Source: a virus
Virus record (IMG/VR): IMGVR_UViG_3300030117_003071
Location: 1 to 36,599 of that record
Length of the DNA stretch: 36,599 nt
Direction: 5' to 3' (one strand)
In this document: positions 34 to 36,478 of the stretch, in pieces
How the letters are laid out: every line of letters begins with the position of its first letter
How positions within the stretch are numbered: the first letter of the stretch is position 1
Made by a program: the position numbers and the translations under genes
Notes under the pieces: generated by a model
Told to the model about the DNA's origin: nothing
Seen by the model: only the letters and a program-made list of their open reading frames with translations
The model's database searches: none

Positions 34-62
34 ATCTTAATAAGATTATTGCTTAATGTCAA
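34..62 (-). promoter_or_regulatory. Early promoter P1 with operator palindrome over the -10
   Basis: On the minus strand, TTGACA (62-57), a 17-bp spacer and TAAGAT (39-34) form a near-perfect sigma-70 promoter. The perfect palindrome ATCTTAATAAGAT (34-46) covers the -10. An AATGTTATT repeat just upstream of the -35 sits 22 bp from AATCTTATT at the -10. The leader carries the complement of GTGGTTGAT (10-18). The promoter lies inside the last codons of the upstream gene (stop at 48-46). Confidence 0.8.
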
Positions 63-405
63 TAACATTAATTGGTTTTTTATATTCGTGGTATTCATCA
101 AACAATGCTCCATCTGCATTTGCAGCTTCTAGCCATCCTTTCGGGTGCAGCTCTTCCTCTAAAGGTTTTTGTTCAACCTTTTTTATTGCCTGAAGCGTAT
201 CAAGTGCTTCAACTAAAGGATTTAATTCTTTGCGAGATAAACCAGCTTTTTTAATTTCAATATCATTGATTGATAAAAGCAATCTCTGGATTGCTCTATA
301 AGCAACACCAGCATCATTAATTGCGGTTGTTTCCATTGGTTCCCAATTTCCAGCAGATTCTTCTTTATACAATTTGCCTTTAATCATTCTGACTTCTTTT
401 GACAT
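46..405 (-). CDS. Hypothetical early protein, 119 aa
   Basis: I do not recognise this protein. It is charged and soluble, with no membrane segment and no clear motif. A longer frame opens at 477, but that start lies upstream of a strong terminator hairpin (434-462) whose sequence would then be translated, so I chose the internal ATG at 405 (MSKEVRMIKGKLYKEE). No Shine-Dalgarno sequence is evident before it; a run of seven C on the coding strand lies about 15 bases upstream. Its last codons (INVIDIKQ) are the P1 promoter itself. It appears to have no promoter of its own and would depend on read-through of the terminator from the gene at 468-617. Real gene likely, function unknown. Confidence 0.7.
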   Translation of the reverse strand: MSKEVRMIKGKLYKEESAGNWEPMETTAINDAGVAYRAIQRLLLSINDIEIKKAGLSRKELNPLVEALDTLQAIKKVEQKPLEEELHPKGWLEAANADGALFDEYHEYKKPINVIDIKQ

Positions 406-433
406 GGTTCTTAGATAGGGGGGGTGGATGTAG

Positions 434-462
434 GAAAAATAAAAAGCCTCCCGAAGGAGGCT
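434..462 (-). terminator. Rho-independent terminator with UUCG loop, leftward
   Basis: On the minus strand, stem AGCCTCC/GGAGGCT (7 bp, 462-445) closed by the loop TTCG is followed by TTTTATTTTT. This is a textbook intrinsic terminator just after the stop of the 49-aa gene. It stands between that gene and the one starting at 405. Confidence 0.9.
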
Positions 463-467
463 ATCTT

Positions 468-617
468 TTAGAGCCATTCATTGGGATAAACAACTCTTTC
501 TTGTTCAACTATCGCTTCAACTGATTCCTCGACTTCTTTGATATTAAGTTGAAAAATCTCATCTCCTTCTTTCATTGTCTTAACGATTTGTCCGAAGGTG
601 TCAGCAAGTTTGCCCAT
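468..617 (-). CDS. Small acidic early protein, 49 aa
   Basis: This short gene begins at ATG 617 (MGKLADTFGQIVKTMKEG) and ends at TAA 470-468. It is transcribed from promoter P2 (647-675) and followed directly by a UUCG terminator, so it forms a self-contained transcription unit. The protein is acidic in its second half (EEVEESVEAIVEQE type composition) with no recognisable domain. AGGAC in the leader is a weak ribosome-binding site, and the leader motif TCAACCAC (complement at 632-639) lies upstream of it. Function unknown; the promoter-gene-terminator arrangement makes it convincing despite its size. Confidence 0.7.
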   Translation of the reverse strand: MGKLADTFGQIVKTMKEGDEIFQLNIKEVEESVEAIVEQERVVYPNEWL

Positions 618-759
618 GAATTAAGTCCTGTGTGGTTGACTTCTTAATCTTAATAAGATTATGGCATTTAGTCAATCGGCCCCTTAACCATTCACCATGT
701 CTAACTTGCTGTTCCCTTATCTTCTGGCAATGCTCGCACTCACATAAATATTTCTGCAT
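601..759 (-). CDS. Possible small Cys-rich protein, 52 aa
   Basis: The frame starts at ATG 759 and ends at TGA 603-601. The N-terminus reads MQKYLCECEHCQKIRE, a CxCxxC cluster that could bind zinc, and a fourth cysteine follows near residue 33. It runs through promoter P2 and overlaps the start of the 49-aa gene by 17 bases in another frame. Two other genes here (ending at 46 and 36465) also carry a promoter in their 3' end, which makes this arrangement plausible. A weak ribosome-binding site (AAGGAA) is rather far upstream. Without homologues this could be a chance frame. Confidence 0.4.
   Translation of the reverse strand: MQKYLCECEHCQKIREQQVRHGEWLRGRLTKCHNLIKIKKSTTQDLIHGQTC
647..675 (-). 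promoter_or_regulatory. Early promoter P2 with operator palindrome over the -10
   Basis: On the minus strand, TTGACT (675-670), a 17-bp spacer and TAAGAT (652-647). The palindrome ATCTTAATAAGAT at 647-659 is perfect. Unlike the other copies, the sequence upstream of the -35 (GGGGCCGA) lacks the second AATCTTATT element. The leader has GTCAACCAC (complement 632-640). It drives the 49-aa gene. Confidence 0.75.
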
Positions 760-828
760 TGGCTTGGATAGTTCCTTGCCTTACACTAATGGCCTATTAA
801 ACTTGAAGCATTTAAGCTTCTTTTCTTT

Positions 829-1341
829 TTGACTTCAATACAAGATTTAAAAAGCGACCATAAAAACGCTCGTAAAAGGACAGACCGTTCGTCCTTTTTA
901 ATCAAAGAATCATTAGAAAAATTTGGGGCTGCTCGGTCAATAGTTATAGATGAAGAAAACAGAATCCTTGCTGGCAATGGAACCATTGAAGGTGCAAAAG
1001 CAGCAGGAATAAAAAACCTTCGAGTGATAGAAACAGACGGCAAAGAAATTATTGCTGTAAAAAGAACTGGACTAACAGAGGAGGACAAAGTTGGTTTAGC
1101 TCTTGCTGATAATAGAACATCTGAGTTATCTGAATGGGATGCTCACATGCTTCAGGAACTAACTCAAGAACATGATATTTCTAGCTGGTTTGATTCTGAA
1201 GATTTAAAAGACTTAGGTGTAGAAGCACCTGATTTTAATCCTGCTTCTTTAGAAGATCAGGGTGACTTAGGCAAATTTGAGAAAAAAGAAATTAACTGTA
1301 CTTGTCCTAAATGTGGCTATGAGTTCATACAACAAATCTGA
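829..1341 (+). CDS. ParB-like (ParB/Srx fold) protein with C-terminal zinc ribbon
   Basis: This 170-residue protein has the ParB N-terminal nuclease-like fold. The N-terminus has the arginine-rich segment typical of the family (KNARKRTDRS, residues 12-21), followed by the ILAGNGTIEGAKAAG signature (about 45-59). The remainder is acidic and ends in a zinc-ribbon-like CTCPKCGYEF (about 157-166). Phage ParB-like proteins of this size near terminase genes are often paired with DNA-modification genes; the biochemical role (DNA binding, nuclease or nucleotide-dependent switch) is not certain. The only credible start is TTG at 829, because the frame upstream has no ATG or GTG before the stop at 787. 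The end overlaps the Mom-like gene by 23 bases, suggesting translational coupling. It is the first gene of the rightward block. Confidence 0.75.
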   Translation: MTSIQDLKSDHKNARKRTDRSSFLIKESLEKFGAARSIVIDEENRILAGNGTIEGAKAAGIKNLRVIETDGKEIIAVKRTGLTEEDKVGLALADNRTSELSEWDAHMLQELTQEHDISSWFDSEDLKDLGVEAPDFNPASLEDQGDLGKFEKKEINCTCPKCGYEFIQQI

Positions 1342-1984
1342 TCTGCATCTTAACTGGGCAAATTATGCTGCAGTTCTTTATGCTTGTAAAAAGTGGCACT
1401 ACTCCAAAAGTGTACCTACTGGGAAATTAATTAAGGTTGGAGTTTGGGAAAAAGGTGTTTTTATTGGGTGTCTTGTTTACAGCAGAGGTGCTAATTACAG
1501 GATGCTTAATAAATACGGATTAAGACAAGATCAAGGCTGTGAATTAACACGGATTGCTCTTTCTTCTCATATAACAACTGTTTCTCGTATTCTTTCTATT
1601 TCTTTGAAGTTTCTTAAAAAAAGCAGTCCTTCTCTTCAGTTGGTTGTTTCCTATGCTGATCCTATGCAAGATCATCATGGGGGTGTTTATCAAGCAAGTA
1701 ATTGGATTTATTCAGGCTTGAGCAGTCCTGCACCTCAATGGTGGTTTAAAGGTAAATGGGCACACAATAAAACAGTTTACGAGTCTAAGTTATCCAAATC
1801 TGAGAAAAGTAGGTTAAAGCGTCGTGTCGTTCCGGGTAAACACACTTATCTAATGCCTCTGACTTCTCAAATGAGGGAGAAAGCTCTATCCTTATCAAAG
1901 CCCTACCCTATGCGTCTGAAGCAGGTTCAAGTCAGTACCCCTGACACGAACGGAGGGGCAGCACCTACCCAGACGCTTTTATGA
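1319..1984 (+). CDS. mom: Mom-like DNA adenine modification protein
   Basis: The protein resembles phage Mu Mom, which converts adenine in DNA to N6-carbamoylmethyl-adenine and so protects phage DNA from host restriction. The region ACKKWHYSKSVPTGKL (about residues 22-37), the central GVFIGCLVYSRGAN and the later SYADPMQDHHGGVYQASNW match the GNAT-like Mom fold as I remember it. I chose the ATG at 1319 (MSSYNKSDLHLNW); the frame opens earlier at 1277, but that would add residues overlapping the ParB zinc ribbon. In Mu, the zinc-finger protein Com activates mom translation; here the preceding gene ends in a zinc ribbon and overlaps the mom start. Expression with the packaging genes would modify DNA just before encapsidation. 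Fairly sure of the family, not of activity. Confidence 0.75.
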   Translation: MSSYNKSDLHLNWANYAAVLYACKKWHYSKSVPTGKLIKVGVWEKGVFIGCLVYSRGANYRMLNKYGLRQDQGCELTRIALSSHITTVSRILSISLKFLKKSSPSLQLVVSYADPMQDHHGGVYQASNWIYSGLSSPAPQWWFKGKWAHNKTVYESKLSKSEKSRLKRRVVPGKHTYLMPLTSQMREKALSLSKPYPMRLKQVQVSTPDTNGGAAPTQTLL

Positions 1985-2003
1985 TTGTGTTAATAATATA
2001 AGC

Positions 2004-2324
2004 ATGGCTAAAAAGGGCACTAAAGCAGAAACAATCATAAGAGCACAAAAGTTTGCTCAGATTATTGCTAATGGTGGGAGAAGGTCAGATTGTGTTCAAT
2101 ATGCTTCAAATAAATGGGGGGTTAGTGCAAGAGCAGCAGATGAGTATTTAGCGATAGCTCGGGAAGCTTTGCAAAAGGATTGGGATCTTCAGCGACCTCA
2201 GATGGTGGCAGATCTTTTGAGTCAATGCAGCACCTTACAGATGGAAGCTAGAAGGGCTGGTCAATATCACATTGCTCTTGGTGCAATTAATACAGCAGCT
2301 AAATTAGCCTCTCTTTGCTCTTGA
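2004..2324 (+). CDS. terS: Terminase small subunit
   Basis: This 106-residue basic protein has an N-terminal helix-turn-helix-like segment (QIIANGGRRSDCVQYASNKWGV region, residues 18-40, followed by ARAADEYLAIARE) and a helical C-terminus, as in small terminase subunits that recognise phage DNA for packaging. It lies directly upstream of the large subunit and its stop TGA overlaps the TTG start of that gene. The start ATG 2004 follows an AT-rich stretch without a clear Shine-Dalgarno sequence. Position and fold support the call; sequence identity among small subunits is generally poor. Confidence 0.75.
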   Translation: MAKKGTKAETIIRAQKFAQIIANGGRRSDCVQYASNKWGVSARAADEYLAIAREALQKDWDLQRPQMVADLLSQCSTLQMEARRAGQYHIALGAINTAAKLASLCS

Positions 2325-3685
2325 ATATTCTCGAAGAATTACCAGCAGGTCACGTTTTATATCCTCAAGGATTTACTGCCTTTACTGTTTCACCTGAACA
2401 ACAAGCACAAGAAACAGATTTAGTTCGACAGCGTATTTTTGACGGCTTATTACATTATCAGCAAAATATTTGTAAAGACTTAGAACATAGAATTGTTGGA
2501 TTTTGTGCAGGTTATGGTGCAGGAAAGACAAGAACCCTTTGTGCATGGACTACCTTATGTGCTCTTGATAACCCCAATACGATTGGGGCTGTTTTCGCTC
2601 CTACTGGGGCTTTGGTTCGTGATGTTTTGCAGCGTTCTCTTGAAGAATTTTGGGAATCACATGACATCAACTATGAATACAGAGCCTCACCTTTACCCGA
2701 ATACAAACTAAATCTTCCTAATGGAGAAGTTACCGTTCTTTGCCGTTCAATGGAATCTTGGCAGAGAATCATAGGCGTGAACTTGTCTTTTATAGGTTCA
2801 GACGAGTTAGACACTACAAAATCGGACATAGGTCAGAGAGCTATTGAAAAATTCTTAGGCAGATTAAGAGCAGGGAATAGAAGACAATTAGGTCTTTTTT
2901 CTACTCCTGAAGGTTTTGGTACGTTCTATAATTTGTTTGTCCGAGAAGGTCACAAGGAAGACCGAGCACTCTTCAAAGCTCGAACGGCTGACAACCCTTA
3001 CTTGCCGCCTGACTTTCTACAAGCATTACTTGAAAATTATCCAGCTTCTTTAGTTCGTGCCTACACCGAAGGAGAATTTTGCAATCTTCAAACGGGAGCT
3101 GTTTACTGTCGTTTTAGTCGAGAAAAGCACGTAACTGAAGAAATGCCCGACCACTCAGAAGAAATTATTAGAGTTGGTTGTGACTTTAACGTTGGAAATT
3201 GCAACGCAGCAATCGGAGTAATCAGCAAAGGACATCTATACATTTTCGATGAAATAGGTGGTGCATATGACACAGACTCAATGGCTGACCAATTGCGAGA
3301 AAAGTTTCCGCACAATACGATCTACGCATATCCAGACGCTTCAGGTGGAAACAGATCAACAAATGCTGCTAAGACCGACATCGAATTATTGCAGCAAAGA
3401 AGAATTGTCAACTTGTCAGGTGCAAGCAATCCTTATGTCAGGGATAGAGTTGCAGCAGTTCAAGCAATGTTGCTTAATGGGAAAGAAGAAATAAGATTAC
3501 ATATTCATCCACGTTGTAAGAAAACAATTGAGTCTTTAGAGCTTCAGGCATATGCAGAAGATGGCACTCCAGATAAGACAATGAATCTGGATCACATGGC
3601 TGATTCCTTAGGTTATTTAATATGGAAGGAGTTCAATCCATTACACATGAACGTAGGGAGAGGAACGGGTATTAGAATTTATTAG
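2321..3685 (+). CDS. terL: Terminase large subunit (ATPase-nuclease packaging motor)
   Basis: The protein powers DNA translocation into the prohead and cuts the concatemer. The frame can be read from TTG 2315; numbering from there, Walker A GYGAGKT is at 66-72, Walker B LSFIGSDE at about 157-164 and motif III STPEG at 196-200. The C-terminal RNase H-like nuclease has GCDFNVGN (D290), AYPDASGG (D340) and a final HMADSLGYL. The length of about 455 residues is normal for Terminase_6-type large subunits. I favour the TTG at 2321, because it forms a TTGA overlap with the stop of the small subunit; 2315 is also possible. All catalytic motifs are intact. The gene is followed by a short gap and the portal gene. 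Confidence 0.95.
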   Translation: MNILEELPAGHVLYPQGFTAFTVSPEQQAQETDLVRQRIFDGLLHYQQNICKDLEHRIVGFCAGYGAGKTRTLCAWTTLCALDNPNTIGAVFAPTGALVRDVLQRSLEEFWESHDINYEYRASPLPEYKLNLPNGEVTVLCRSMESWQRIIGVNLSFIGSDELDTTKSDIGQRAIEKFLGRLRAGNRRQLGLFSTPEGFGTFYNLFVREGHKEDRALFKARTADNPYLPPDFLQALLENYPASLVRAYTEGEFCNLQTGAVYCRFSREKHVTEEMPDHSEEIIRVGCDFNVGNCNAAIGVISKGHLYIFDEIGGAYDTDSMADQLREKFPHNTIYAYPDASGGNRSTNAAKTDIELLQQRRIVNLSGASNPYVRDRVAAVQAMLLNGKEEIRLHIHPRCKKTIESLELQAYAEDGTPDKTMNLDHMADSLGYLIWKEFNPLHMNVGRGTGIRIY

Positions 3686-3726
3686 CTTTTATCTATAAAC
3701 TATCTACATAGTGTCGAGGTTTAATC

Positions 3727-5154
3727 GTGTATAGCGGATTCAATTATTACAACAGGGCAAAAGCAGGTGATACGACTGATATAAATGATCCTAATCAAGC
3801 ATGGCAAAATCAAGAGCCTCATTGGATTTTGATTGAAGATTTGATAGGTGGAACTTATGAGATGAGAAGAAGACACCGTAGATATTTACCTCAGGAACCA
3901 AGAGAACAAGATGAAAGTTATGACAATAGATTGTCCCGATCAGTTGTTCAACCTTTTTATGTCCGACTAGAACGCATGTTGGCTGGAATGCTGACAAGAA
4001 AGCCTGTTCGATTAAATGATGTTGCTGATGTTATTAGAGAGCAGTTATTTGATGTCGATCTTCAAGGCAATGATCTAAATATATGGACATACGAAACAGC
4101 AAGAAAAATGATTCGTTACGGTCATGTTGGTGTTTTGGTTGATGCACCAGCAACAGGGGAAGGGGGGCGTCCTTATTGGGTTAGTTATACTCCAAGAGAT
4201 ATTTTAGGTTGGAGGACAGAAATGATAGAAGGATCACAAAAGTTAGTACAACTTAGATTATTAGAAAAAGTTATAGAGCCAGAAGGTTTATATGGTGAGC
4301 AGATTATTGAACAAGTCAGATTGTTAACTCCTGGTGCTTTTGAAATTCACAGAAAGAACGACAAAGGAGAGTTTCAGTTGTTTGATGAAGGGACAATGAG
4401 TTTACCTGAAATACCTTTTTCTGTTGCTTATGCAAATCGAGTTAATTTAATGGAATCACGTCCGCCAATGGAAGACATAGCAGAATTAAACTTGAAGGCA
4501 TATCAAACACAAAGTGACTTAGATAATCAATTACATATCAGTGCTGTGCCAATGTTGGCGTTTTATGGATTTCCTCAGAGCTCGGAGGAAGTAAGTGCAG
4601 GCCCAGGTGAAGCAATTGCCTTTCCTGCTGAAGGTCGTGCCGAATATATAGAAAGCAAAGGAACCAGCTATGACGCTCAATTTAAAAGATTAGATCAATT
4701 GCAAAGTCAAATAAACGAATTGGGCTTAGCTGCTGTACTTGGACAAAAACTTTCAGCCGAAACAGCCGAATCCAAGAAAATAGATAGAAGTCAAGGTGAC
4801 AGCACCATGATGGTAGTTGCTCAACAAATGCAAGATATGATTGATAATTGTCTTTTGTTTCATGCTCAATATTTAGGGTCAAATGAATCAGGTAGTAGTT
4901 TCGTTAATCGTGATTTCTTAACATCTCGTTTAGATCCTCAGGAAATAGGGAGTTTGCTCCAGCTATATACAGCCGGAACAATTACACAAGAAACATTATT
5001 AAAGCAATTGCATGAAGGTGAAGTTTTAGGTGATGATTTTGAAATAGAAGAAGAAGTTGAAGCAACTCAGGCTGGTGGACTAATTGAAATGGAATCACCT
5101 CAAGAAGAAGTAAAAGAAGAAATTCCAACTAATAAAAATGACATTGCTTCCTGA
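3727..5154 (+). CDS. Portal protein (DUF4055 type)
   Basis: The 475-residue protein matches the DUF4055 family, which I regard as phage portal proteins: the dodecameric ring at one capsid vertex through which DNA enters and leaves. Typical features are an N-terminal aromatic segment, the NRLSRSVVQPFYVRLERMLAG helix region (about 63-83), a GRPYWVSYTPRDILGW segment, and a late helix followed by an acidic tail (EEEVEATQAGG and beyond). The start is GTG 3727 with a GAGG ribosome-binding site eight bases upstream; no better ATG exists. It sits between large terminase and the MuF-type head protein, the standard order for head modules. Confidence 0.88.
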   Translation: MYSGFNYYNRAKAGDTTDINDPNQAWQNQEPHWILIEDLIGGTYEMRRRHRRYLPQEPREQDESYDNRLSRSVVQPFYVRLERMLAGMLTRKPVRLNDVADVIREQLFDVDLQGNDLNIWTYETARKMIRYGHVGVLVDAPATGEGGRPYWVSYTPRDILGWRTEMIEGSQKLVQLRLLEKVIEPEGLYGEQIIEQVRLLTPGAFEIHRKNDKGEFQLFDEGTMSLPEIPFSVAYANRVNLMESRPPMEDIAELNLKAYQTQSDLDNQLHISAVPMLAFYGFPQSSEEVSAGPGEAIAFPAEGRAEYIESKGTSYDAQFKRLDQLQSQINELGLAAVLGQKLSAETAESKKIDRSQGDSTMMVVAQQMQDMIDNCLLFHAQYLGSNESGSSFVNRDFLTSRLDPQEIGSLLQLYTAGTITQETLLKQLHEGEVLGDDFEIEEEVEATQAGGLIEMESPQEEVKEEIPTNKNDIAS

Positions 5155-5157
5155 TGA

Positions 5158-10686: not shown

Positions 10687-10688
10687 CT

Positions 10689-14869: not shown

Positions 14870-15158
14870 GGCCGTTAAACACGCACTAGAAGAAACACCC
14901 AAAGAGGCATGTGGTGTTGTTGTTAAAGGTGTTTATTATCGTTGTAGAAATATTGCCGAAAATCCTACTTATGATTTTGTTTTAGATCCTAGAGACTATT
15001 TAAAAGCAAGATTAAAAGGGAAAATTGAAACAGTTGTCCATTCACATCCAGAAGGAGGAGGAGCAAGCAATTTAGATATGATAGCTTGTAAGCAAATGAA
15101 TTTACCTTGGCATATTTATTTAGTTCCAAAAGATGAATGGTTAATTATTCAGCCTTAA
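14838..15158 (+). CDS. Tail tip JAMM/MPN peptidase (N-terminal half of lambda K)
   Basis: The 106-residue protein has the complete JAMM zinc-protease motif: E23 in PKEACGVVV, H68 and H70 in VVHSHPEGG, then S77 and D80 (ASNLD). In lambda, gpK joins this domain to an NlpC/P60 peptidoglycan hydrolase; here only the JAMM domain is present and no P60 domain is encoded next to it. It may cleave a tail-tip protein or a cell-wall substrate. The start at ATG 14838 overlaps L in another frame. Confidence 0.85.
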   Translation: MDSLEQGFKCEAVKHALEETPKEACGVVVKGVYYRCRNIAENPTYDFVLDPRDYLKARLKGKIETVVHSHPEGGGASNLDMIACKQMNLPWHIYLVPKDEWLIIQP

Positions 15159-15192
15159 TGGTTAGACTGTGAAAAAGTAAAAGGTCTTAATA

Positions 15193-16619: not shown

Positions 16620-19600
16620 ATGGCTTTAAATTCTACTTCTACAATTAAACTTATTGAGCTTCTTTGCGAGGGGCCAATAGAAGGTTTTGTTGATAGAAAT
16701 AAAAATATTTATTTAGATGAAACACCTTTAGAAGATAACGATGACAATTTAAATTTTCCTGAAGGAAGTTTTAGTTTTGATTTTGTTAATGGAACTCCAA
16801 ATCAGCCAAGGTTAGAAGCAAGGCCACCAGCCAGGAGAAAAACAAGGTCAATATCTGTAGTAACAGATATAAACAAAGAAATTGGATCAAATTATGATGA
16901 AACTTATAACACCAGAAACGAAGTTAAAGAAGTAAACGGTAGAGATTACGGGTACGGAGAGGTTGTTCATCAGATTACAAACGCAACAAAAGTAGTAGAT
17001 CCTAATGATGCCGATAACCCCAATCTATTAAATGAAATTGCATCTATTGAATTAATATTTACTATTCCTGCTTTATTTTCAACAGCTCAAGAAGGCTTAG
17101 CTAAGGGGCAATTGTTTAACGCTAGTGTAAGGATTAGAGTTTATATAAAAGATAAAAATAGTGAATATGGTAGTGCTGTTTGGGATCATACAACAACAGG
17201 AATTAGTACTTCTAATTATCAAGTAAAGTCACCTCCGATCAATTTAGAAGGTGATGGTCCTTGGTTTGTAAAAGTAAAAAAGAGAAGTAGTGCTTCTTTT
17301 AACTGGAACAATCAAGAAAAAGATTTTGAAATACGTTTTGCCGATTTTGAAGAAGTTTCCGAAAATTTCCCTCTAAAAGGTAGTAGGGCAAATCGAATAA
17401 TTTGGAGCACCTTAATAGAAAACACACAAACAAATTCAGTTTCTAATTACCCTAATTCTGCCTGTATTTCTTTAAATTTATCAACTGAAGAATTTTCGAG
17501 TTTACCTACTAGAGCATATTTAGTACGAGGATTGATTGTTGCAGCTCCTCATAATTCAAAAGTAAGAGATGACGGTAGTTTGTACTTTCCTCCTGACTCT
17601 GATTTTAATGGGTCGTTAAAAAATAAATGGACAACATGCCCTGTTTGTGCTTTTTATGCAATGGCTACAAATAGCCGATGGGGTGCAGCTCTTCCTACTT
17701 CTAGTTTTAATTGGGTTGATTTATATCCTCTTTGTCAATATGCAAACCAATTGGTAGAGACTCCTGATGGAGACGAACCTAGATTTGCAATTAATACAGT
17801 TATTGGTAGTAGAACAGATGCTTTTAGAGTTTTAAGGGATCTAGCTAGTGTTTTTAGAGGTATGTCATACTGGGCAAGTAATACAATTCAATTAACAGCA
17901 GATCACGGAAACCTTGATGGAACTAATGTTTTACCTGTTCATCTTTATAATAATTCTAATGTAATTGAAGGTGTCTTTAATTATTCAGGTACCTCTTTAA
18001 AAGCTAGAAGTACTTCCGTTCGTGTTACTTATAACGACCCCGATAATTTTTATAAACCTAATTTTGTTATTGAAGAAGATGACGATTTAATTGCAAAATA
18101 TGGTAGGCAAGTTAAAGAAATTACAGCGTTTGGATGTACTTCAAAATATCAAGCGCAAAGGATGGCTAGATGGTTAATGAAATCGGAGGAATTAGATCAA
18201 CATATTGTCACTTTTTCAACAGGACTTGAAGGAGTTGCTGTTTTCCCTGGTCAAGTTTTTGCCGTAGCTGACACATTAAGACAAGGATCAAGATTATCAG
18301 GCAGAGTTGCAAGTGCTACAAAATCTTCAATTACATGTGATCAAACTATTGTTTTACCAAGTGGCTCTGATCATCAAATAACTTGTAAATTAAAAGATGG
18401 AAGTGTAGAGACAAAAAATATTAGTTCGGTTTCTGGAGCTACTGTTAATTGTTCTGCTTTTTCTACAGCTCCTTTATCTGAAAGCGTTTGGTCTATCTCT
18501 GCTTCTTCTGTTGTTGAGCAAAAATTCAGATGTACTGCAGTAGATGAACAAGGTGATGGGACGTGTTCTATTACAGGTGTTGAGTTTAATGATTCAATTT
18601 ATGCGGCGGCTGATACTACTTCAGAAATTACTTACGAAGACATAACAACATTTGATGATAAACCTCAAAAAATTGACAATTTAGAAGTATCTTTTTCGGA
18701 AATTAGTGTAAATAATAATACTGTTAATAGGGCTTCTTGGAATTGGTCAAGAGGTGTCAATGGCTCAAGCGTTAGCTTTGAAATTCAATGGAGAATTGGT
18801 GAAGGAAGTTATCAACAAACAATTAGAACAACTAATACGGGTTTTGATGTTGATGGTGTTCCTAGTGGTCAAATTTTGACCTTTAGGGTTAGAGCCATCG
18901 GCCCTGAACCTTTAAACAAAAAAAGTGGTTATACACGAAAATCTATTGTCGTTCCTTATCCTTCTTCAGGAGGAGACGATGGGCCTATCGTTTTACCCCC
19001 TAATCCTGAAGAAGTAACAGTTCAAGCTACTAGTAATGACGAAGTTGTTTTGAGGTGGGCCATCCCCGAAACATGGGGCGGTATTCATTCTAATTTAATT
19101 GCTTTAATTCGTCATTCAGATAAAACAGACGGCACAGGAACATGGTCTGATTCAACATTATTAAGAGATGTCCAAGCCACAACTGACTCGGCTGTGTTGC
19201 CTTTGTTGAATGGCGAATACATGGTTAAATTTAAAGATACAGATGGGAATAAAAGTGTTAATGAAGCAAGTGCTCTTATTAATTTACCTGATGCTATTCC
19301 TAGAAAAGAAATAACAGTTAGAAGAGAAGATACTGATAATCCACCATTTCAAGGTCAAAAAGATCATGTTGAATACTCAAGTGAATATGATGCTTTGATT
19401 TTATCTGGTACGGAGTATTGGGATAGTCTAGCTGGAGATATTGACTCATGGCCTACTATTGACTTTACAGGTGACATAAGAAAATCAGGGTATTATTACT
19501 TTAATAATATTGTTGATTTAAATGGAATTTATACACTTGTTATAGAAAGAAAATTAAGAAGTAGAGGCTTACTTTTTGATGATACGATTGATGATAAGAA

Positions 19601-24244: not shown

Positions 24245-25507
24245 ATGGCTAACACAATCAGAATCAAAAAAAGAGCATCAAGCGGTTCTGCTGGTGCGCC
24301 TTCGACTTTAGCTCCTTCAGAATTAGCTTTTAATGAAAATACGGGTGATTTAAAACTGTATTACGGCTATGGAGATAATGGATCAGGTGAGGCAAGTTCT
24401 GTAATTGCTGTTGGTGGTTCGGGTGCTTTCTTCAATAAGACTGACACAAGAACAGCAAATACTATCCTTAGCGGACCAACGGCAGGCGGCGCAGCGGCTC
24501 CCACGTTCAGGTCACTTGTTGCGGCTGATTTATTAAAGCTGAATGAATTTACGGCTCCTGATGGTGCTGTTTCTCTAAACAGTCAAAAGATTACAGGCTT
24601 AGCAGCTCCGGCAGCTGATACTGACGCAGCCACTAAAGGATACGTTGATTCCACTAGTGAAGGATTAGACGTAAAGGATTCTTGCAAAGTCGCGACCACG
24701 GCGAATATCACACTTGCAAATACGCAAACCGTAGACGGTGTTTCTTTGGCGGCTAATGATCGGGTGCTCGTTAAAGATCAGAGCACAGCCAGTCAAAATG
24801 GATTGTACAAGGTTGTAGATGGTGGCAGTTGGACGAGAACCGATGATATGGCGGCATCGTCAGATGCTGCAGGTGCGTTTACATTTATAGAACAAGGCTC
24901 AGCCAATGCGGATATTGGGTTTGTCTGTACTTCTAACAAAGGAAGCGCGGTCGTGGGCACTAATAACTTAGCGTTCAGCACATTTTCATCTTCTGGAAAT
25001 GTTACGGCTGGAGATGGTCTTGATAAGTCTGGTAATGAATTAAGTGTCGATTTAAAAAGCAATGGTGGATTAGTTATTGAATCGACAGAGTTAGCCGTAA
25101 AACTAGATGCTAGTTCAATCACTGGAACGCTTGCTGTAGGAGATGGAGGGACAGGAGCAACATCAGCTAGTGCGGCTCGTACTGCTTTAGGGTTGGCTAT
25201 TGGTACAAATGTTGTTGCTTATGCGGCTGATTTAAATACGCTTAGTTCTTGCCAATCTGGAGGAGCTGCGGCTTTAGCTGCTCTGACTTCAACAGAAATT
25301 GCAATTCTCGACGGCGCAACTGTAACGACTTCCGAGCTAAATATCCTTGATGGTGTTACTAGCACAGCAACAGAATTAAATTTATTAGACGGTGTTACTG
25401 CTACAACGACCGAATTGAATTATGTAGACGGTGTTACCTCTGCAATTCAAACTCAACTAGATGCCAAACTAACGTCTAGTTCAACAGTTGATGGAGGAAC
25501 GTTCTAA
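24245..25507 (+). CDS. Tail fibre protein with C-terminal LDGVT repeats
   Basis: The 420-residue protein has the N-terminal module MANTIRIKKRASSGSAGAPS, then SELAFNENTGDLKLYYG, which attaches phage fibres in cyanophage-like viruses. A middle domain (ITGLAAPAADTDAATKGYVD; KVATTANITLANTQTVDGVS; NDRVLVKDQ; NGLYKVV) follows. The C-terminus has repeats of the form TELN-LDGVT (about residues 352-400), a trimeric beta helix. The gene ends immediately before another fibre gene with the same first six residues (MANTIR). Confidence 0.85.
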   Translation: MANTIRIKKRASSGSAGAPSTLAPSELAFNENTGDLKLYYGYGDNGSGEASSVIAVGGSGAFFNKTDTRTANTILSGPTAGGAAAPTFRSLVAADLLKLNEFTAPDGAVSLNSQKITGLAAPAADTDAATKGYVDSTSEGLDVKDSCKVATTANITLANTQTVDGVSLAANDRVLVKDQSTASQNGLYKVVDGGSWTRTDDMAASSDAAGAFTFIEQGSANADIGFVCTSNKGSAVVGTNNLAFSTFSSSGNVTAGDGLDKSGNELSVDLKSNGGLVIESTELAVKLDASSITGTLAVGDGGTGATSASAARTALGLAIGTNVVAYAADLNTLSSCQSGGAAALAALTSTEIAILDGATVTTSELNILDGVTSTATELNLLDGVTATTTELNYVDGVTSAIQTQLDAKLTSSSTVDGGTF

Positions 25508-31859: not shown

Positions 31860-31863
31860 TTGC

Positions 31864-32562
31864 TCAAGCTAATTTTTCAATAGCTTGCTGCAAAAATTGA
31901 CCATGTGAAGCAAGTGTTATGTGTTGTGGCGAAATTGAATCAGCCGAGATGTTGAACTCCTGTTTAAAAGCACTTAACACCTTTTTCTTTTTTAAATCAT
32001 CTAATGCTGAAATCTTGCTACCAATTTCTGCTTTAGCTGCTGGAGTCATAAAATCATTCTTTTTTTGCTCTACTTTCTTCACTTGTGAATCTGGTCTGGT
32101 TGGTGTTCTGCTAATGCCTGTTTTTTTTGGTGATAGCTCTTTTACATCACCTAGTTCTGTGTCTTGCTCAGTGTTAGTATCCATATCTGGTTCAATTCCA
32201 AGCAACATTTTTATTGCATATCGTCTTGAGTAGGTTTGACTTCCACCCCATGCAAACATAGGTTTTGCACCCATATTTTCAGGCAGAAAAAGAGGCAGTT
32301 CGCTTTTTATCTCTTCTCCAGACTCAACATGAATCAAACGGGTAACAATTAAAGTTTGACCATGATCGTTATAAGCTTGAGGCTGAATAAGAATCAAACC
32401 ATTAGCATGTAGAACAGGTTGAATTGATGAAATTAAATTTTCTAATGAGCAATATTTATATTGAAATTTACCCATCCCTGCTGTCTTGTCTTTTTTAATA
32501 TCAGGGAGTTGTTTTTGAAAGTTTAGAAGTGACTCATAGAGAGTCTTGTTTTTCTGTGCCAT
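31864..32562 (-). CDS. erf: ERF-family single-strand annealing protein
   Basis: The 232-residue protein has the ERF domain in its first 135 residues: SLLNFQKQLPDIKKDKTA, FQYKYCSLENLISSIQPVLH, GLILIQPQ, GQTLIVTRLIHVESGEE and FAWGGSQTYSRRYAIKMLLG. ERF proteins anneal single strands during phage recombination and genome circularisation. The C-terminus is variable and charged. It is driven by promoter P3, and ATG follows the leader motif ATCAACCAC by two bases. Its partners are the SSB-like protein and the nuclease and resolvase genes upstream. Confidence 0.9.
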   Translation of the reverse strand: MAQKNKTLYESLLNFQKQLPDIKKDKTAGMGKFQYKYCSLENLISSIQPVLHANGLILIQPQAYNDHGQTLIVTRLIHVESGEEIKSELPLFLPENMGAKPMFAWGGSQTYSRRYAIKMLLGIEPDMDTNTEQDTELGDVKELSPKKTGISRTPTRPDSQVKKVEQKKNDFMTPAAKAEIGSKISALDDLKKKKVLSAFKQEFNISADSISPQHITLASHGQFLQQAIEKLA

Positions 32563-32585
32563 GGGTGGTTGATATTTGCTATTTA

Positions 32586-32614
32586 ATCTTAATAAGCTAA
32601 ATACTTATTGTCAA
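32586..32614 (-). promoter_or_regulatory. Early promoter P3 with operator-like palindrome
   Basis: Minus strand: TTGACA (32614-32609), 17-bp spacer, TAAGAT (32591-32586). The palindrome at 32586-32598 is ATCTTAATAAGCT, one mismatch. TATCTTATT lies just before the -35. The stop of the upstream resolvase gene (TGA) is inside the -35. The leader has ATCAACCAC (complement 32565-32573) just before the ERF start. Confidence 0.8.
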
Positions 32615-33069
32615 TAAGATAAAGCAAAAGGTGTTATAAAAATGTTTGCTCCCAATAGTTCATCTTCCTTTGCATATCTTTTAATGGCCTTTAATGATAC
32701 CACCAAGCTGTCATCCTTGATAACAGTTCCTCCTGCCTTCGCTGATAATCCATCTAAAGTTGATCTACATAATTTGTCTATGTCTCCTGTTTGTGAACTT
32801 GTTACAAACTCAGGTGCTTTTTGTTTTAATTTGTTTGCATTTTTTCCTGTTCCAAAATGACTTTTTGGTCTAGCAAATAAAAACACAATTTCTATTTCTA
32901 CAGCTCTACCAATTACTAATCCTTCGTAATGATCTATGGCAGCAGCTCGAACATCTTGCCGCCAAGGTTTAACTTTCTTGCTGTTCTCAATCATAATTCC
33001 ATGACCAATATGTCTCTTGCTTCCTTGTGGAGCTGGAAGACCTCGAACAGGAATAAAAATTTTATCCAT
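32611..33069 (-). CDS. rusA: RusA-family Holliday junction resolvase
   Basis: The 152-residue protein fits RusA endonucleases: an N-terminal strand IPVRGLPAPQGSKRH, the acidic motif GDIDKLCRSTLDGL (D96 and D98) and KDDSLVVSLKAIKR (D119/D120), giving the conserved acidic triad. RusA cuts four-way junctions formed in recombination or before packaging. It begins with a one-base overlap with the nuclease gene, and its stop is part of promoter P3. Confidence 0.88.
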   Translation of the reverse strand: MDKIFIPVRGLPAPQGSKRHIGHGIMIENSKKVKPWRQDVRAAAIDHYEGLVIGRAVEIEIVFLFARPKSHFGTGKNANKLKQKAPEFVTSSQTGDIDKLCRSTLDGLSAKAGGTVIKDDSLVVSLKAIKRYAKEDELLGANIFITPFALSY

Positions 33070-33746
33070 TAAAAAACTTCAACCTTTTCTTCAAAAGCTT
33101 CCCAAGCTTCTTTCCATTTCAATCGACAAGTTAAAGGGTCTTGCTCTTCTCCAAAAACACATTTCCCTGGCCTTGCCCAAACTGTTCTACAACTATCAAC
33201 AACAATTCCATGATGGTTTGCGAGTGCGTCAACGTAACTTCCTAATTGAGCATCTGTTGAATAAGGTCTGGCGTTTTTCTTTGATTGCGTTTTTAAATCA
33301 ATTAAAACTAATTTTTGCAATGTGTGGTCATAACCCAAAAGATCAAATTGCCCACCTACTGATTTTTCTAAATCAGCCAGCATATATTCAACAGCCCAAG
33401 GCTCGAAGGTAGACCAATATTCATTTTCTAAAAGTGGAGTAACCCATTCTTCATAATCACCTGCATCTGGATTTTTTTCACCCAACATTCTTTGCTGTAA
33501 ACACCAATGCACTTTTTCACCTCTGGGCTGCCAGATATGTCTATATCTTTCAATGTTTGCTAAAGCTTCTGGACTCTTTCTACTTGCAATTTGTGTTGTA
33601 AAAAAAGCCAACCATTCACCTGTTGGCTCCCAACAATATTGGTGGCGTTCTTCATCCCGATACATGGGAAGAGGATCAAGCTTTAAATGACTCCAAGGTG
33701 GGTCACGGTGCAAGCTTGCGTTGTTGCTTAGTTCTTGATATTTCAT
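33069..33746 (-). CDS. PD-(D/E)XK nuclease (RecB/Cas4-like exonuclease)
   Basis: The 225-residue protein has H80 (GEKVHWCLQQ), E120 region, D135 in GGQFDLLGYD, then D150 and K152 in LVLIDLKTQSK, and Q167--Y171 in AQLGSYVD: the full RecB/Cas4-type motif series. It probably degrades one strand to supply substrate for the ERF annealing protein. It overlaps the small gene before it by four bases and RusA by one. No Cas4-type cysteine cluster is present. Confidence 0.85.
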   Translation of the reverse strand: MKYQELSNNASLHRDPPWSHLKLDPLPMYRDEERHQYCWEPTGEWLAFFTTQIASRKSPEALANIERYRHIWQPRGEKVHWCLQQRMLGEKNPDAGDYEEWVTPLLENEYWSTFEPWAVEYMLADLEKSVGGQFDLLGYDHTLQKLVLIDLKTQSKKNARPYSTDAQLGSYVDALANHHGIVVDSCRTVWARPGKCVFGEEQDPLTCRLKWKEAWEAFEEKVEVF

Positions 33747-33934
33747 TCTTTAAAATCCTGAATCTGTTGGATTAAATCTAAATATTCATTTTTTGAGTTT
33801 ATATATTTACTTAAAGCAAGCTCCTTTTCAATTGGATCTTCTTCGGTCAAAAGTTTCCATTTGTTTCTGAGTTCTTCAGATTCTTGTTTTTTGAATAAAG
33901 CATTGAGCTTTATGGTTTTTAAATTGTTTTTCAT
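33743..33934 (-). CDS. Small helical protein, 63 aa
   Basis: MKNNLKTIKLNALFKKQESE continues with charged helices (ELRNKWKLLTEEDPIEKELA; LSKYINSKNEYLDLIQQIQD). Four-base overlaps with both neighbours place it firmly in the early operon. No recognised family; possible partner of the nuclease or of the winged-helix protein. Confidence 0.6.
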   Translation of the reverse strand: MKNNLKTIKLNALFKKQESEELRNKWKLLTEEDPIEKELALSKYINSKNEYLDLIQQIQDFKE

Positions 33935-34242
33935 TTGTTAAACAGATTGAATTGGTTGTTTTTGTCTGTTCTTAATTGCCATTGATGTTCTTTTTTTCCA
34001 TATCGGCCCATAACTTTTTTATCTGTTTTCTCTAGATCGCCTTGGTTTGTCATATCCGTTAAAGCTCTTCTAATTGAAGTGATCGGATAAGCGTCATTAA
34101 GCATTTTGCAAATAACAGAAGCACTTAATGGGTTTCCTTGATCGTGAAAACACAAAAGTATTTTTTTCTCTTGTGTTTTAGCTTTTGCATGAGATTCAGC
34201 AAGTTCTGAACCTGTTTCTTCTGTGGTGTTGTAATAGCTCAT
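33931..34242 (-). CDS. Winged-helix DNA-binding protein, 103 aa
   Basis: The protein has a wHTH-like core: KILLCFHDQGNPLSASVICK (residues 27-46), MLNDAYPITSIRRALTDMTN (recognition helix region) and a wing GDLEKTDKKVMGRYGKKEHQ. This is similar to phage proteins controlling replication or early expression. Ends NNQFNLFNK, a motif resembling clamp-binding Q--LF peptides (QFNLF), which is only a suggestion. It overlaps the next gene by four bases. Confidence 0.65.
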   Translation of the reverse strand: MSYYNTTEETGSELAESHAKAKTQEKKILLCFHDQGNPLSASVICKMLNDAYPITSIRRALTDMTNQGDLEKTDKKVMGRYGKKEHQWQLRTDKNNQFNLFNK

Positions 34243-34245
34243 TTT

Positions 34246-34518
34246 TTAGGTTGCCAAATCTTTCGGGTCGATTATTTCCACCGATTCAGAAGGTGGGGTT
34301 GCTTCTCTTGCTAAGTTCCTAAATCTGACACCTTCATATCCTCTTGGGAAGATGGCAAGGTTTGAATTTGCATCATCAATACATCTTTGAGCACCAGGGC
34401 TTAGTTGGTCTAAATCTTCCAACGTCCACATAGGCTTGCTTGGGTTTGATGGATTTGGGGTTGTAAGCCCCCGTTTAAGCAGTTTTATGATTGAGGCTCT
34501 GTTGTATAAAGGTTCCAT
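34246..34518 (-). CDS. Hypothetical early protein, 90 aa
   Basis: MEPLYNRASIIKLLKRGLTT continues with PNPSNPSKPMWTLEDLDQLS and GYEGVRFRNLAREA. The N-terminal helix could bind DNA or protein, but no family is recognised. It overlaps the upstream gene by one base and ends three bases before the winged-helix gene, so the operon position is secure. Confidence 0.6.
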   Translation of the reverse strand: MEPLYNRASIIKLLKRGLTTPNPSNPSKPMWTLEDLDQLSPGAQRCIDDANSNLAIFPRGYEGVRFRNLAREATPPSESVEIIDPKDLAT

Positions 34519-35099
34519 TATTCAAACCCCTTGGAAGCGGTGAATACCCGTTGTGCGGGGTGTCTTGTTGTTGGTTCAGGATTCCATGAAGTTGTTTTTG
34601 TTTTGGCAAAAGTTTCGTAGTTTTGCAAGGTGATGCTTTGCCACTCATTAGCAATTGCCAAAGTGATTTGATCTTTGACTGCATCTTCACCATATTTCTT
34701 TTTTATCCCTATTAAACCTTTTTCACCCATCAGCAAATCAAAAGCTGCCTCTGTCTTTTTCCCTTTCTTTGAGTGCCAGAAATCAACGATCAAACTAGAT
34801 AAAGAGACAAGTTCAAAAGGAATTAAATCTGGACTAAATTTAAACCTCGTTTTTTTAAAATTTTCTTTCTCCTTATTTATACTATTAGGTACTCTCTTTG
34901 TATTAGATAAAGTACCTTCACTTTTTTTTGTTTCTCTCTCTCTTTCGTTCGGTACTTTAAGGGTATCACATGCGTCAAGGGTTGCAAGTCCCTTAGAGAT
35001 CATTTCGTTAACAAAGCTTGTGGTGGACAGCCATGATGGTTTTTTGGCTTCACATGCCTTTATCAGTTCGGGTGCAATTCGGGTGGAGTTTGCAGGCAT
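34518..35099 (-). CDS. Possible replication-initiation protein, 193 aa
   Basis: The N-terminal 45 residues (STRIAPELIKACEAKKPSWL, STTSFVNEMISKGLATL) resemble a ribbon-helix-helix or similar small DNA-binding module seen in cyanobacterial phages. After a Lys/Glu-rich linker comes a helical domain (VDFWHSKKGKKTEAAFDLLM; VKDQITLAIANEWQSITLQN) like the C-termini of phage replisome organisers, where A-I-NEWQ-I patterns occur. It is the first gene of the recombination/replication operon, read from promoter P4. The replication role is inferred. Confidence 0.55.
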   Translation of the reverse strand: MPANSTRIAPELIKACEAKKPSWLSTTSFVNEMISKGLATLDACDTLKVPNERERETKKSEGTLSNTKRVPNSINKEKENFKKTRFKFSPDLIPFELVSLSSLIVDFWHSKKGKKTEAAFDLLMGEKGLIGIKKKYGEDAVKDQITLAIANEWQSITLQNYETFAKTKTTSWNPEPTTRHPAQRVFTASKGFE

Positions 35100-35141
35100 T
35101 TTGTATTAGGTCTGTGGTTGGTTTGAGTAATGAACGTACTA

Positions 35142-35169
35142 ATTATGCTACATACAGTTTTAATGTCAA
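35142..35169 (-). promoter_or_regulatory. Early promoter P4, no operator palindrome at the -10
   Basis: Minus strand: TTGACA (35169-35164), 16-bp spacer, CATAAT (35147-35142). The upstream AATCCTATT element is kept, but there is no ATCTTA-N-TAAGAT palindrome over the -10. The leader has CCAACCAC (complement 35114-35121) in place of TCAACCAC. It drives the recombination/replication operon, probably with different regulation from the other copies. Confidence 0.7.
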
Positions 35170-35225
35170 TAGGATTAACTGATAAAAAAAGTTATCTTGT
35201 TTTAAAAGGGGTTTGCAACAATGTG

Positions 35226-35231
35226 TATAAT
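35226..35231 (+). promoter_or_regulatory. Possible -10 box of a rightward promoter
   Basis: A perfect TATAAT lies 33 bases before the ATG of the rightward 51-aa gene, back-to-back with P4. No good -35 is found at 16-18 bp (AT-rich TTTAAAAGGG there). This would make 35142-35231 a divergent control region. Confidence 0.4.
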
Positions 35232-35263
35232 TAGCTTGACCTGAAGCTCAGAGGCGTTTGCCA

Positions 35264-35419
35264 ATGACCACTAGGACTCAACAAATAAAAAAAGATCTCC
35301 AATGTTATGGAGTAGACCCTTTCCAAATTGCAGCAGAAGCAATTGAACGGGGTGATCGTTTAGCCCTTCAAGTAAAACGATTAGAAGCAATCATTGATCA
35401 ATCTTCTGTCAAAGCCTGA
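35264..35419 (+). CDS. Small protein of the control region, 51 aa
   Basis: MTTRTQQIKKDLQCYGVDPF continues QIAAEAIERGDRLALQVKRL, helical and charged, ending QSSVKA. It is the only rightward gene in the early control region and overlaps the 3' end of the ribbon-helix-helix gene by 22 bases, tail to tail. It is unrecognised; an antirepressor, a small regulator or an antitoxin-like partner are possible. Confidence 0.55.
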   Translation: MTTRTQQIKKDLQCYGVDPFQIAAEAIERGDRLALQVKRLEAIIDQSSVKA

Positions 35420-35559
35420 TCAATTAGACCTCTGACAATTTCGCTATTGCTTACACCAGCAGCTACAGCTAATTGATTAACTTTGTTTTTTATTTCTGGT
35501 GTAACACTGGTTTGTAGTATTTCGCTCCAGAGTTCAGACCCTCTTGCTTTGTTTGGCAT
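35398..35559 (-). CDS. Ribbon-helix-helix (CopG/Arc-type) regulator, 53 aa
   Basis: After MPNKARGSELWSEILQ comes an RHH motif: TSVTPEIKNKVNQLAVAAG (strand and first helix) and VSNSEIVRGLIDQALTED (turn and second helix, with the S--E-VR-L pattern). RHH proteins bind short palindromes as dimers of dimers. A degenerate copy of the phage operator (35575-35587) precedes this gene, and an AGGAG ribosome-binding site lies seven bases before its ATG, unlike most neighbours. It is a good candidate for the protein that recognises the repeated ATCTTA-N-TAAGAT sites, but this is inference. Confidence 0.75.
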   Translation of the reverse strand: MPNKARGSELWSEILQTSVTPEIKNKVNQLAVAAGVSNSEIVRGLIDQALTED

Positions 35560-35574
35560 AATCAGCTCCTGTTA

Positions 35575-35587
35575 ATCTTAATAATAT
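35575..35587 (-). promoter_or_regulatory. Degenerate operator / weak promoter before the RHH gene
   Basis: ATCTTAATAATAT (plus strand) matches the operator palindrome at 12 of 13 positions. On the minus strand it gives TAAGAT as -10, but the hexamer 17 bp upstream (TTTCAG) is a poor -35 and lies in the stem of the terminator for the preceding gene. It could be a low-level, autoregulated promoter. Confidence 0.5.
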
Positions 35588-35624
35588 AATAAAAAACCTG
35601 AAAAGCTATTGCCTCTCAGGTTTT
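35585..35624 (-). terminator. Rho-independent terminator, leftward
   Basis: On the minus strand, AAAACCTGA/TCAGGTTTT (9 bp, 35624-35616 and 35601-35593) with a 14-base loop is followed by TTTTATTATATT. It lies 11 bases after the stop of the 76-aa gene. Confidence 0.8.
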
Positions 35625-35634
35625 GGTGTTTTGT

Positions 35635-35865
35635 TTAGTAGTTCAAGCCTACTGTGTGCTTAGTGCAGCTCCAAATAAGGTTTTCTTTTTTGGCTGCTTT
35701 GATGAGTTTCTTTTTCTCATCTTCTGAATAAGCATGTTCCTCCCATTTGTTGGTTGTGATGAACCAGTAGTAACTAGGATTTTCCTCCGCATGTTTTTCT
35801 TCTTTTGCTTGTATTTCAAGCTGGTCCATGTGGCGGTTTAAATCTGATTCAACTGGGCAAGACAT
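35635..35865 (-). CDS. Hypothetical early protein, 76 aa
   Basis: MSCPVESDLNRHMDQLEIQA continues as an acidic/basic helical protein with an aromatic segment (NPSYYWFITTNKWEEHAYSE) and ends KKENLIWSCTKHTVGLNY. The frame opens earlier (35901), but that would start within the promoter; ATG 35865 directly follows the ATCAACCAC leader motif. It has its own promoter and terminator. Function unknown. Confidence 0.65.
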   Translation of the reverse strand: MSCPVESDLNRHMDQLEIQAKEEKHAEENPSYYWFITTNKWEEHAYSEDEKKKLIKAAKKENLIWSCTKHTVGLNY

Positions 35866-35888
35866 GTGGTTGATGTGTAACTGATTTA

Positions 35889-35917
35889 ATCTTAATAACA
35901 TTAGTGCATAATGTCAA
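35889..35917 (-). promoter_or_regulatory. Early promoter P6 with operator-like palindrome
   Basis: Minus strand: TTGACA (35917-35912), 17-bp spacer, TAAGAT (35894-35889). The palindrome ATCTTAATAACAT (35889-35901) has one mismatch. AATCTTATT lies before the -35, 22 bp from AATGTTATT at the -10. The leader motif ATCAACCAC (complement 35866-35874) directly touches the ATG at 35865, with no Shine-Dalgarno sequence. Confidence 0.8.
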
Positions 35918-35942
35918 TAAGATTAGCTGATTATTACAAGGC

Positions 35943-35965
35943 AAAAAAAAGACCCTTTCGGGTCT
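35943..35965 (-). terminator. Rho-independent terminator, leftward
   Basis: Minus strand: AGACCC/GGGTCT (35965-35960 and 35955-35950) with loop GAAA, followed by T8 (35950-35943). It ends the transcript of the 147-aa gene. Confidence 0.88.
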
Positions 35966-35978
35966 GTTGTCTTTTGAC

Positions 35979-36422
35979 TTATTTCATATAAAGCCAGCCG
36001 CCGCTCCAACCTACATTGTCAGGATTTAAAACGAACTCTCTGCTTTTTTGCTCTCTCAAGTCATATCTAACGTGCTTTGCTGGTGCTTTCCATCCAGCAG
36101 GCTTATAGATTTCACCTGTTTGCTTGTCAACAAAAGCATGAACGCTTCCATCTCTGTACTCGTTGATGTCGTTGTAAGTATCAAATTCTTGAGCAATAAT
36201 TTTTAGATACTTTTTACCAGGCTGAATACGAAACCTCATTAACTTGGCTGTTCCGTTTTCTACTGCTTTGATTTCATTGCTTGTGTATTCTGTCGCTCTT
36301 TCTTGGTTCATGGCCTTCATGCTTCTTAAGTGGTAACGCTTGTAGTTTTCTGCAAGTGCTTCACAAAGCTGCTCAGTCCATTCAAGAATTTGGGCTTCAG
36401 TTGTTGTTTGAGTAACGGTCAT
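35979..36422 (-). CDS. Conserved phage early protein, 147 aa
   Basis: The protein has a helical N-terminus (ILEWTEQLCEALAENYKRYH) and a C-terminal domain with GSVHAFVDKQTGEIYKPAGW, KAPAKHVRYDLRE, a pattern I recognise from uncharacterised phage proteins (VHAFVD--TG-VYK-A-WK-PAK). No activity is established. ATG 36422 follows promoter P7 and a leader with ATCAACCAC; the transcript ends at the terminator 35943-35965. Confidence 0.75.
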   Translation of the reverse strand: MTVTQTTTEAQILEWTEQLCEALAENYKRYHLRSMKAMNQERATEYTSNEIKAVENGTAKLMRFRIQPGKKYLKIIAQEFDTYNDINEYRDGSVHAFVDKQTGEIYKPAGWKAPAKHVRYDLREQKSREFVLNPDNVGWSGGWLYMK

Positions 36423-36449
36423 TTGTAAGTCGTGGTTGATTACGTTCTA

Positions 36450-36478
36450 ATCTTAATAAGATTATTAGATAATGTCAA
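36450..36478 (-). promoter_or_regulatory. Early promoter P7 with perfect operator palindrome
   Basis: Minus strand: TTGACA (36478-36473), 17-bp spacer, TAAGAT (36455-36450). The palindrome ATCTTAATAAGAT at 36450-36462 is perfect. AATCTTATT occurs both before the -35 and at the -10, starting 22 bp apart. The leader has ATCAACCAC (complement 36432-36440). The promoter lies at the end of the partial upstream gene (stop at 36467-36465). Confidence 0.85.

Follow-up and report, generated by a model that had tools for sequence, protein, structure and literature searches.

A palindromic operator embedded in the early promoters of an uncultured cyanosiphovirus, and a ribbon-helix-helix protein as its candidate repressor

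We analysed bases 1–36599 (hereafter the window) of the 39321-base IMG/VR record IMGVR_UViG_3300030117_003071, which continues past the window, with the focus on a palindrome that recurs in the early promoters and on the small ribbon-helix-helix (RHH) protein that most likely binds it. The gene content is siphovirus-like, including a terminase, a portal, a J-like central tail fibre, Erf, RusA and a PD-(D/E)XK nuclease. Because the portal is 63–76% identical to those of the Prochlorococcus and Synechococcus siphophages KBS-S-2A, S-H1, MED4-117 and MED4-184, we assign the phage to the uncultured cyanosiphoviruses; the host is presumably a marine cyanobacterium. Structural genes occupy the plus strand, and the genes that we call early, on the basis of their content and promoters, the minus strand. 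The features considered below are as follows.

32–48, minus strand: operator TAATCTTATTAAGATAA over the −10 of promoter 34–62, which drives a gene cut off by the end of the record (the MTPTTQ... family in relatives)
54–70, minus strand: operator-like copy TAATGTTATTGACATTA, the second of promoter 34–62, over its −35
645–661, minus strand: perfect operator TAATCTTATTAAGATTA over the −10 of promoter 647–675 (TTGACT), which drives the open reading frame 468–617; without a −35 copy
32584–32600, minus strand: operator TTAGCTTATTAAGATTA of promoter 32586–32614, which drives the Erf-family annealing protein (31864–32562)
32606–32622, minus strand: −35 copy TTATCTTATTGACAATA of promoter 32586–32614
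35161–35177, minus strand: upstream copy TAATCCTATTGACATTA only, promoter 35142–35169, which drives the primosomal-protein-like gene 34518–35099
35398–35559, minus strand: 53-amino-acid RHH (CopG/Arc-type) protein, candidate repressor and autoregulator
35573–35589, minus strand: operator variant TTATATTATTAAGATTA, 13 bp ahead of the start codon of the RHH gene; without a −35
35593–35624: terminator hairpin directly preceding the variant operator TTATATTATTAAGATTA at the RHH gene
35887–35903, minus strand: operator TAATGTTATTAAGATTA of promoter 35889–35917, which drives a 76-amino-acid protein (35635–35865); −35 copy at 35909–35925
36432–36438 (to within a base), minus strand: example of the leader word CAACCAC
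36448–36464, minus strand: perfect operator of promoter 36450–36478, which drives a DUF7717 protein (35979–36422); −35 copy at 36470–36486

An earlier note, made from this DNA alone, had described five minus-strand promoters of the form TTGACA/T-17-TAAGAT at 34–62, 647–675, 32586–32614, 35889–35917 and 36450–36478, and we recovered all five at these positions with the 17-bp spacer. The inner palindrome ATCTTA-N-TAAGAT is perfect in three of them and carries one mismatch in each of the others (AGCTTA at 32586, ATGTTA at 35889), again as had been noticed. Four of the promoters, all but that at 647, have a related copy two helical turns (22 bp) further upstream, where it covers the −35, and the promoter at 35142–35169 (TTGACA-16-CATAAT) retains the upstream copy TAATCCTATTGACATTA alone. 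Since TA flanks extend the symmetry on both sides, the full unit is a 17-bp palindrome, TAATCTTA-N-TAAGATTA, with the −10 TAAGAT in its right arm. Two further promoters lie outside the window (record 37289–37317 and 37741–37769); one operator is superimposed on the promoters of at least seven transcription units, where the note had counted at least five. Operator-only copies TAATCTTATTGAGATTA occur upstream of the two additional promoters, at 37309, 37349 and 37800. In these copies TAATCT-N5-AGATTA is intact, which suggests that the TTGACA within the −35 copies (TAATCTTATTGACATTA) balances the demands of the operator against those of the promoter. The 22-bp spacing makes it plausible that the paired sites would be bound cooperatively; the second copy is widespread in the window's own clade, and in a second clade, which keeps the −10 operator, the −35 copy is lost or replaced. 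At the end of the window, a 10-N scaffold gap (record 36600–36609) is flanked by the operator-like sequences TTCTAATC and ATCTCAATTAG, and these repeats may account for an assembly break and hide a further promoter.

The promoter pattern alone was mildly unusual, with five or more matches in 4 of 100 shuffles. For the 17-bp palindrome with up to two mismatches, we counted 13 sites in the 39.3-kb record versus 0.03 per dinucleotide shuffle (maximum 1 in 100 shuffles), and all 13 lie within the early region. Scanning IMG/VR with the pattern TTGAC-N11-ATCTTATTAAGAT returned 33 stretches, mostly relatives with several sites each. In these stretches, columns outside the scan pattern were conserved symmetrically, with TA before and TA after, and a G about 7 nt past the −10, the likely transcription start, was conserved as well; the centre base varied (T, A, C and rarely G) while both arms persisted. 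We also used a set less selected by the motif, namely the DNA upstream of orthologues of the downstream genes (seeded with the genes found behind sites), and scored the best palindrome match in each. The mismatches numbered 0–3 in 112 cases and six or more in 74, with two cases in between, and this bimodality indicates that a site is either present or absent. Alignment of 49 non-redundant sites on the palindrome gave 1.27–2.0 bits in the left-arm columns, 0.74 at the centre and 0.77–1.86 in the −35; the arm outside the −10 was almost as conserved as the −10, and better conserved than the −35. The earlier note had let its regulon depend on conservation of the palindrome in related phages beyond the −35 and −10 hexamers, and on this point it holds, because the outer arm and the TA flanks are conserved there.

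The relatives form three clades. Clade A, which is the window's group and includes G050 and G005 as divergent members, has a consensus −35 and the operator over the −10, usually with a second copy over the −35. In clade B, which has retained the operator, the −35 is TGTACA or CATACA, or nothing recognisable. In clade C (G004-like), related genes stand under another repeated promoter, TTGACA-17-TATACT, and up to 10 near-identical TTGACA-17-TATACT-AAAGAAGTCA early cassettes replace the operator set in G004, L241, L242, L244 and L245. We rejected the classification of G004 as operator-free: no copy lies on the −10 of the early TATACT promoters, yet 2–3 operator sites are kept elsewhere in the clade (three in G004 versus 0.01 expected).

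These comparisons bear on whether the repeats are simply strong sigma-70 early promoters, multiplied by selection for strength or by copying of cassettes, with RNA polymerase as the only reader of the palindrome. Such a reading would suit the spacer of exactly 17 bp, the consensus −35 and the conserved G, as well as the clade C cassette, which is repeated without the operator. We regard it as unlikely, given that conservation of the outer arm and of the TA flanks comes close to that of the −10, that the palindrome survives without TTGACA in clade B, and that operator-only copies exist upstream of promoters. It even survives where the −10 has ceased to be usable, namely at the RHH gene in the four loci L048, L239, L240 and L246, in which TAAGAT has become TGAGAT and the operator is still recognisable.

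Some relatives of the window phage bear an extra operator in the structural region (G032 16702–16718, G042 15157–15173, G053 24806–24822, G055 36712–36728 and G050 33849–33865). These sites adjoin a scaffold-like gene, and in some cases they apparently drive a small inserted gene (MAKKEPYL..., MAKEVKTSD...).

A cyanobacterial regulator of the host could be the protein that binds the palindrome, with the phage exploiting it; phages commonly use host factors. The genome searches make this very improbable. The TTGAC-plus-palindrome pattern had no match in 257 Gb of genomes and in no host contig, and the bare palindrome was scattered, among the matches listed, over unrelated taxa. Perfect palindromes were rare in cyanobacterial genomes (8 sites in 7 of 390) and absent from those of 1.6–1.9 Mb. 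On these three grounds we discarded a host regulon. Since the palindrome is unlike a host element, a phage protein is the likely binder. The cultured relatives KBS-S-2A, S-H1, MED4-117 and MED4-184 yielded neither operator sites nor a match to the RHH protein, and we found no isolate with the system.

When early genes were tabulated against records, no gene of DNA-binding type other than the RHH gene occurred in all the operator records that span the locus. A reverse search of IMG/VR from the RHH alignment identified 26 loci, all 26 with operator sites and seven of them newly found through the protein; conversely, 15 loci with relatives of the DUF7717 protein and no RHH match had no operator site at all. 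The RHH gene has its own upstream operator copy in 18 of the 18 non-C records examined, 13–44 bp before the start codon (13–15 bp in clade A and part of clade B, 40–44 bp in the rest of clade B). Taken together, these associations point to the phage-encoded 53-amino-acid RHH protein as the most likely ligand of the palindrome sites.

Two other small genes of the early region have features of their own. The conserved 51-amino-acid gene at 35264–35419 (plus) has an operator-free promoter, divergent from that at 35142–35169, and overlaps the end of the RHH gene. The 93-amino-acid NrdR-like protein (record 37997–38278; L008:1998–2279, minus) has an NrdR-type zinc ribbon (Pfam, 3.8e-14) and is too short for the usual ATP-cone. 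Either of these, the winged-helix-like protein (33931–34242) or an unrecognised protein such as the 76-amino-acid one might bind the palindrome in place of the RHH protein. The 51-amino-acid gene, with its own divergent promoter and cI-like placement, is missing from G004, and the 76-amino-acid protein occurs in every operator record covering the locus and is likewise missing from G004. We consider such a binder rather unlikely all the same. The NrdR-like protein was rejected, being absent from the operator-rich G032, G042, G050, G051, G053 and G055; so was the 51-amino-acid one, which operator-bearing G050 also lacks, and the winged-helix-like one, which a G004-type protein replaces in operator-bearing G042. 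The 76-amino-acid protein has no DNA-binding signature, and G004, from which it is absent, keeps sites.

As to the identity of the RHH protein, 18 of 19 family members match Pfam RHH_1 (PF01402; best E-value 2.3e-7), and among the NCBIfam families matched, several are plasmid copy-control or antitoxin families of the RHH kind. A predicted structure places helices at residues 21–34 and 38–51 after an extended stretch, the strand not being assigned in the monomer. The best fold matches are mostly RHH proteins, namely CopG, Arc (PDB 1par among them), AmrZ, MatP and antitoxins, with weak E-values for a chain of this length. None of the 19 members departs from Q16, S18, V19 and T20 in the putative strand, as would suit sequence-specific DNA binding through it. 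A search of PDB sequences with the family profile found no clear homologue, the best match being a designed protein (3e-4). The half-site spacing ATCT-N5-AGAT may resemble that of the P22 Arc operator.

Several observations weigh against an RHH repressor acting through the palindrome. The window's RHH copy by itself falls below the Pfam gathering score (17.3 versus 20.5 bits), its structural model is modest (pLDDT 79, pTM 0.52), and no Foldseek E-value was below 0.5. Clade C keeps the RHH protein, with no operator copy at its gene, and most of its early promoters are of the operator-free TATACT type, with only 2–3 sites remaining. The link between the RHH protein and the operator, moreover, was observed within one phage group, where any other conserved early-module gene correlates equally; the association is for this reason linkage and not proof. 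Finally, the clade B promoters have a poor −35 (TGTACA, CATACA or none) and TGCAA-type repeats upstream, as would be expected if the RHH protein were an activator or a switch factor, mainly in that clade. Among viral RHH proteins, AvtR acts as an activator as well as a repressor (PMC5569661). We nevertheless judge such a role quite unlikely here, as the operator overlaps the −10, a position suited to occlusion, and the window promoters, with their consensus −35, should need no activator. The TGCAA-like repeats themselves, which are spaced about 11 bp apart upstream of operator promoters without TTGACA in loci L082–L092 (for example L086 and L088), suggest a second factor.

What we infer from the promoters, the palindrome, its conservation, its specificity to phages and its linkage to the RHH gene is an autoregulated early-gene repressor system of a probably lytic cyanosiphophage, a reading to which we give a probability of roughly 0.6. 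Host RNA polymerase would fire the early promoters, which are of the sigma-70 type, at once, in a strong initial burst that would yield small proteins of the host-takeover type and the Erf recombinase. The RHH protein would be made early from the same region, under its own weaker operator copy. Once accumulated, it would bind the operators at all early promoters and at its own gene and occlude RNA polymerase, such that the early set and the RHH gene would be shut off together in a self-limited manner. The early units themselves are compact: they begin with a leader that is tens of bases long, often end in a terminator and encode mostly small unannotated proteins. Across the group, 28 families lie downstream of sites, in addition to Erf, and of the ten families searched nearly all were without annotation.

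The earlier note had likened the layout to the repressor-controlled regulons of temperate phages or immunity systems, which would make the operators part of an immunity repressor regulon. Occluded promoters and paired sites do resemble lambdoid operators, and integration genes are known in other cyanosiphoviruses, P-SS2 for example (PMC3751600). This part of the note was not borne out. A PF00589 tyrosine integrase was found in none of five records, including those of 39–42 kb, a search that did not extend to serine recombinases or partition-based lysogeny, and the promoter-operator was absent from the 257 Gb of genomes and from host contigs. The RHH gene sits among the early genes that it would control, with no independent maintenance promoter. 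The relative KBS2A, in addition, was judged probably exclusively lytic by its authors (PMC3751600). Because no integrase was found in the five records and the relative is probably lytic, we prefer timing control of early genes to a lysogeny repressor, and an immunity regulon appears improbable.

The leader word CAACCAC follows the window promoters, that at 35142 included (about 10, 632, 32565, 35114, 35866 and 36432, minus), and also occurs at record 37274; seven of the nine occurrences in the record are of this early-unit leader type. Its distance from the −10 is variable, it often stands directly before the ATG without a Shine-Dalgarno sequence, and AACCAC just before the start codon is common to clades A, B and C. 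It is probably an element of the 5′ untranslated region and not part of the operator.

Two observations concern the record at large. A single gene (MTPTTQ...DLTGLYFTL in G034) is split between the two ends (1–16 and about 39290–39321), with its start and its tail both present, so that the record appears to be circularly permuted and to lack a few hundred bases. A ParB-like protein (829–1341, plus) adjoins a Mom-family DNA-modification protein (1277–1984, plus; Pfam Mom, 1.3e-39), and the two are likely a DNA-modification pair.

The type of control proposed here is familiar, and the RHH/operator family is new. Terminator-promoter units between small modular early genes are also seen in the early promoter/stem-loop cassettes of T4-type phages, of which, to our knowledge, no operator palindrome forms part. 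Lambdoid cI operators place many copies of one operator on early promoters and serve lysogeny, and P22 Arc is a small viral RHH regulator. SIRV1 SvtR acts as a repressor of its own gene and also binds to several further promoters of the virus, and SSV1 F55 is another viral RHH regulator (PMC5569661). The present protein is small and RHH-like as these three are, a likeness at the level of the RHH domain only; the operator sequence is different, and in the present record a single palindrome recurs within seven or more promoters. Mycobacteriophage stoperators are asymmetric, are spread across the genome and serve lysogeny (PMC9283540). The sites described here share with them, and with the cI operators, the many copies on early promoters. 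Unlike the L5-like stoperators, they form a palindrome and, in this record, occur nowhere outside the early region (a single late-region site is present in a few relatives), and unlike both systems they come with no integrase detected (PF00589, five records).

The closest parallels in mode of action are the anti-CRISPR-associated (Aca) autorepressors Aca1 and Aca2, whose inverted repeats overlap the −10 and −35 of strong early promoters (PMC8434428). Aca8 is a further case, together with the conserved regulatory sequence common to all early genes of SIRV2, which a repressor encoded alongside them is proposed to shut off (PMC11065993). As in the Aca systems, the inverted repeat overlaps the promoters that it would control, and an operator copy lies at the gene of the putative regulator in non-C records. 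The candidate is an RHH protein, in contrast to the Aca proteins described, which are of the (winged) helix-turn-helix kind, and no anti-CRISPR gene was identified in the regulon. The system would work like Aca and is not classed as Aca.

In the literature that we searched, we came upon no account of how early genes are controlled in siphophages of cyanobacteria. If the present reading is true, it would supply regulator, operator and regulon in one step for a group known almost solely from metagenomes. The three clades (consensus −35 with a double operator, weak −35 with a single one, and operator-free promoters with the regulator kept) would make a natural series for studying how a regulon is rewired. 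The operator would also offer a means of finding small early genes that have no known function, a kind of gene that in other viruses often counters host defences (PMC11065993). We raise, tentatively, the possibility that the palindrome marks an anti-defence and host-takeover regulon of marine cyanosiphophages, in which the RHH family would control swappable small early genes (the 28 downstream families), the swaps of −35 modules and promoter sets between clades would reflect its rewiring, and the operator might be used to fetch counter-defence genes from metagenomes.

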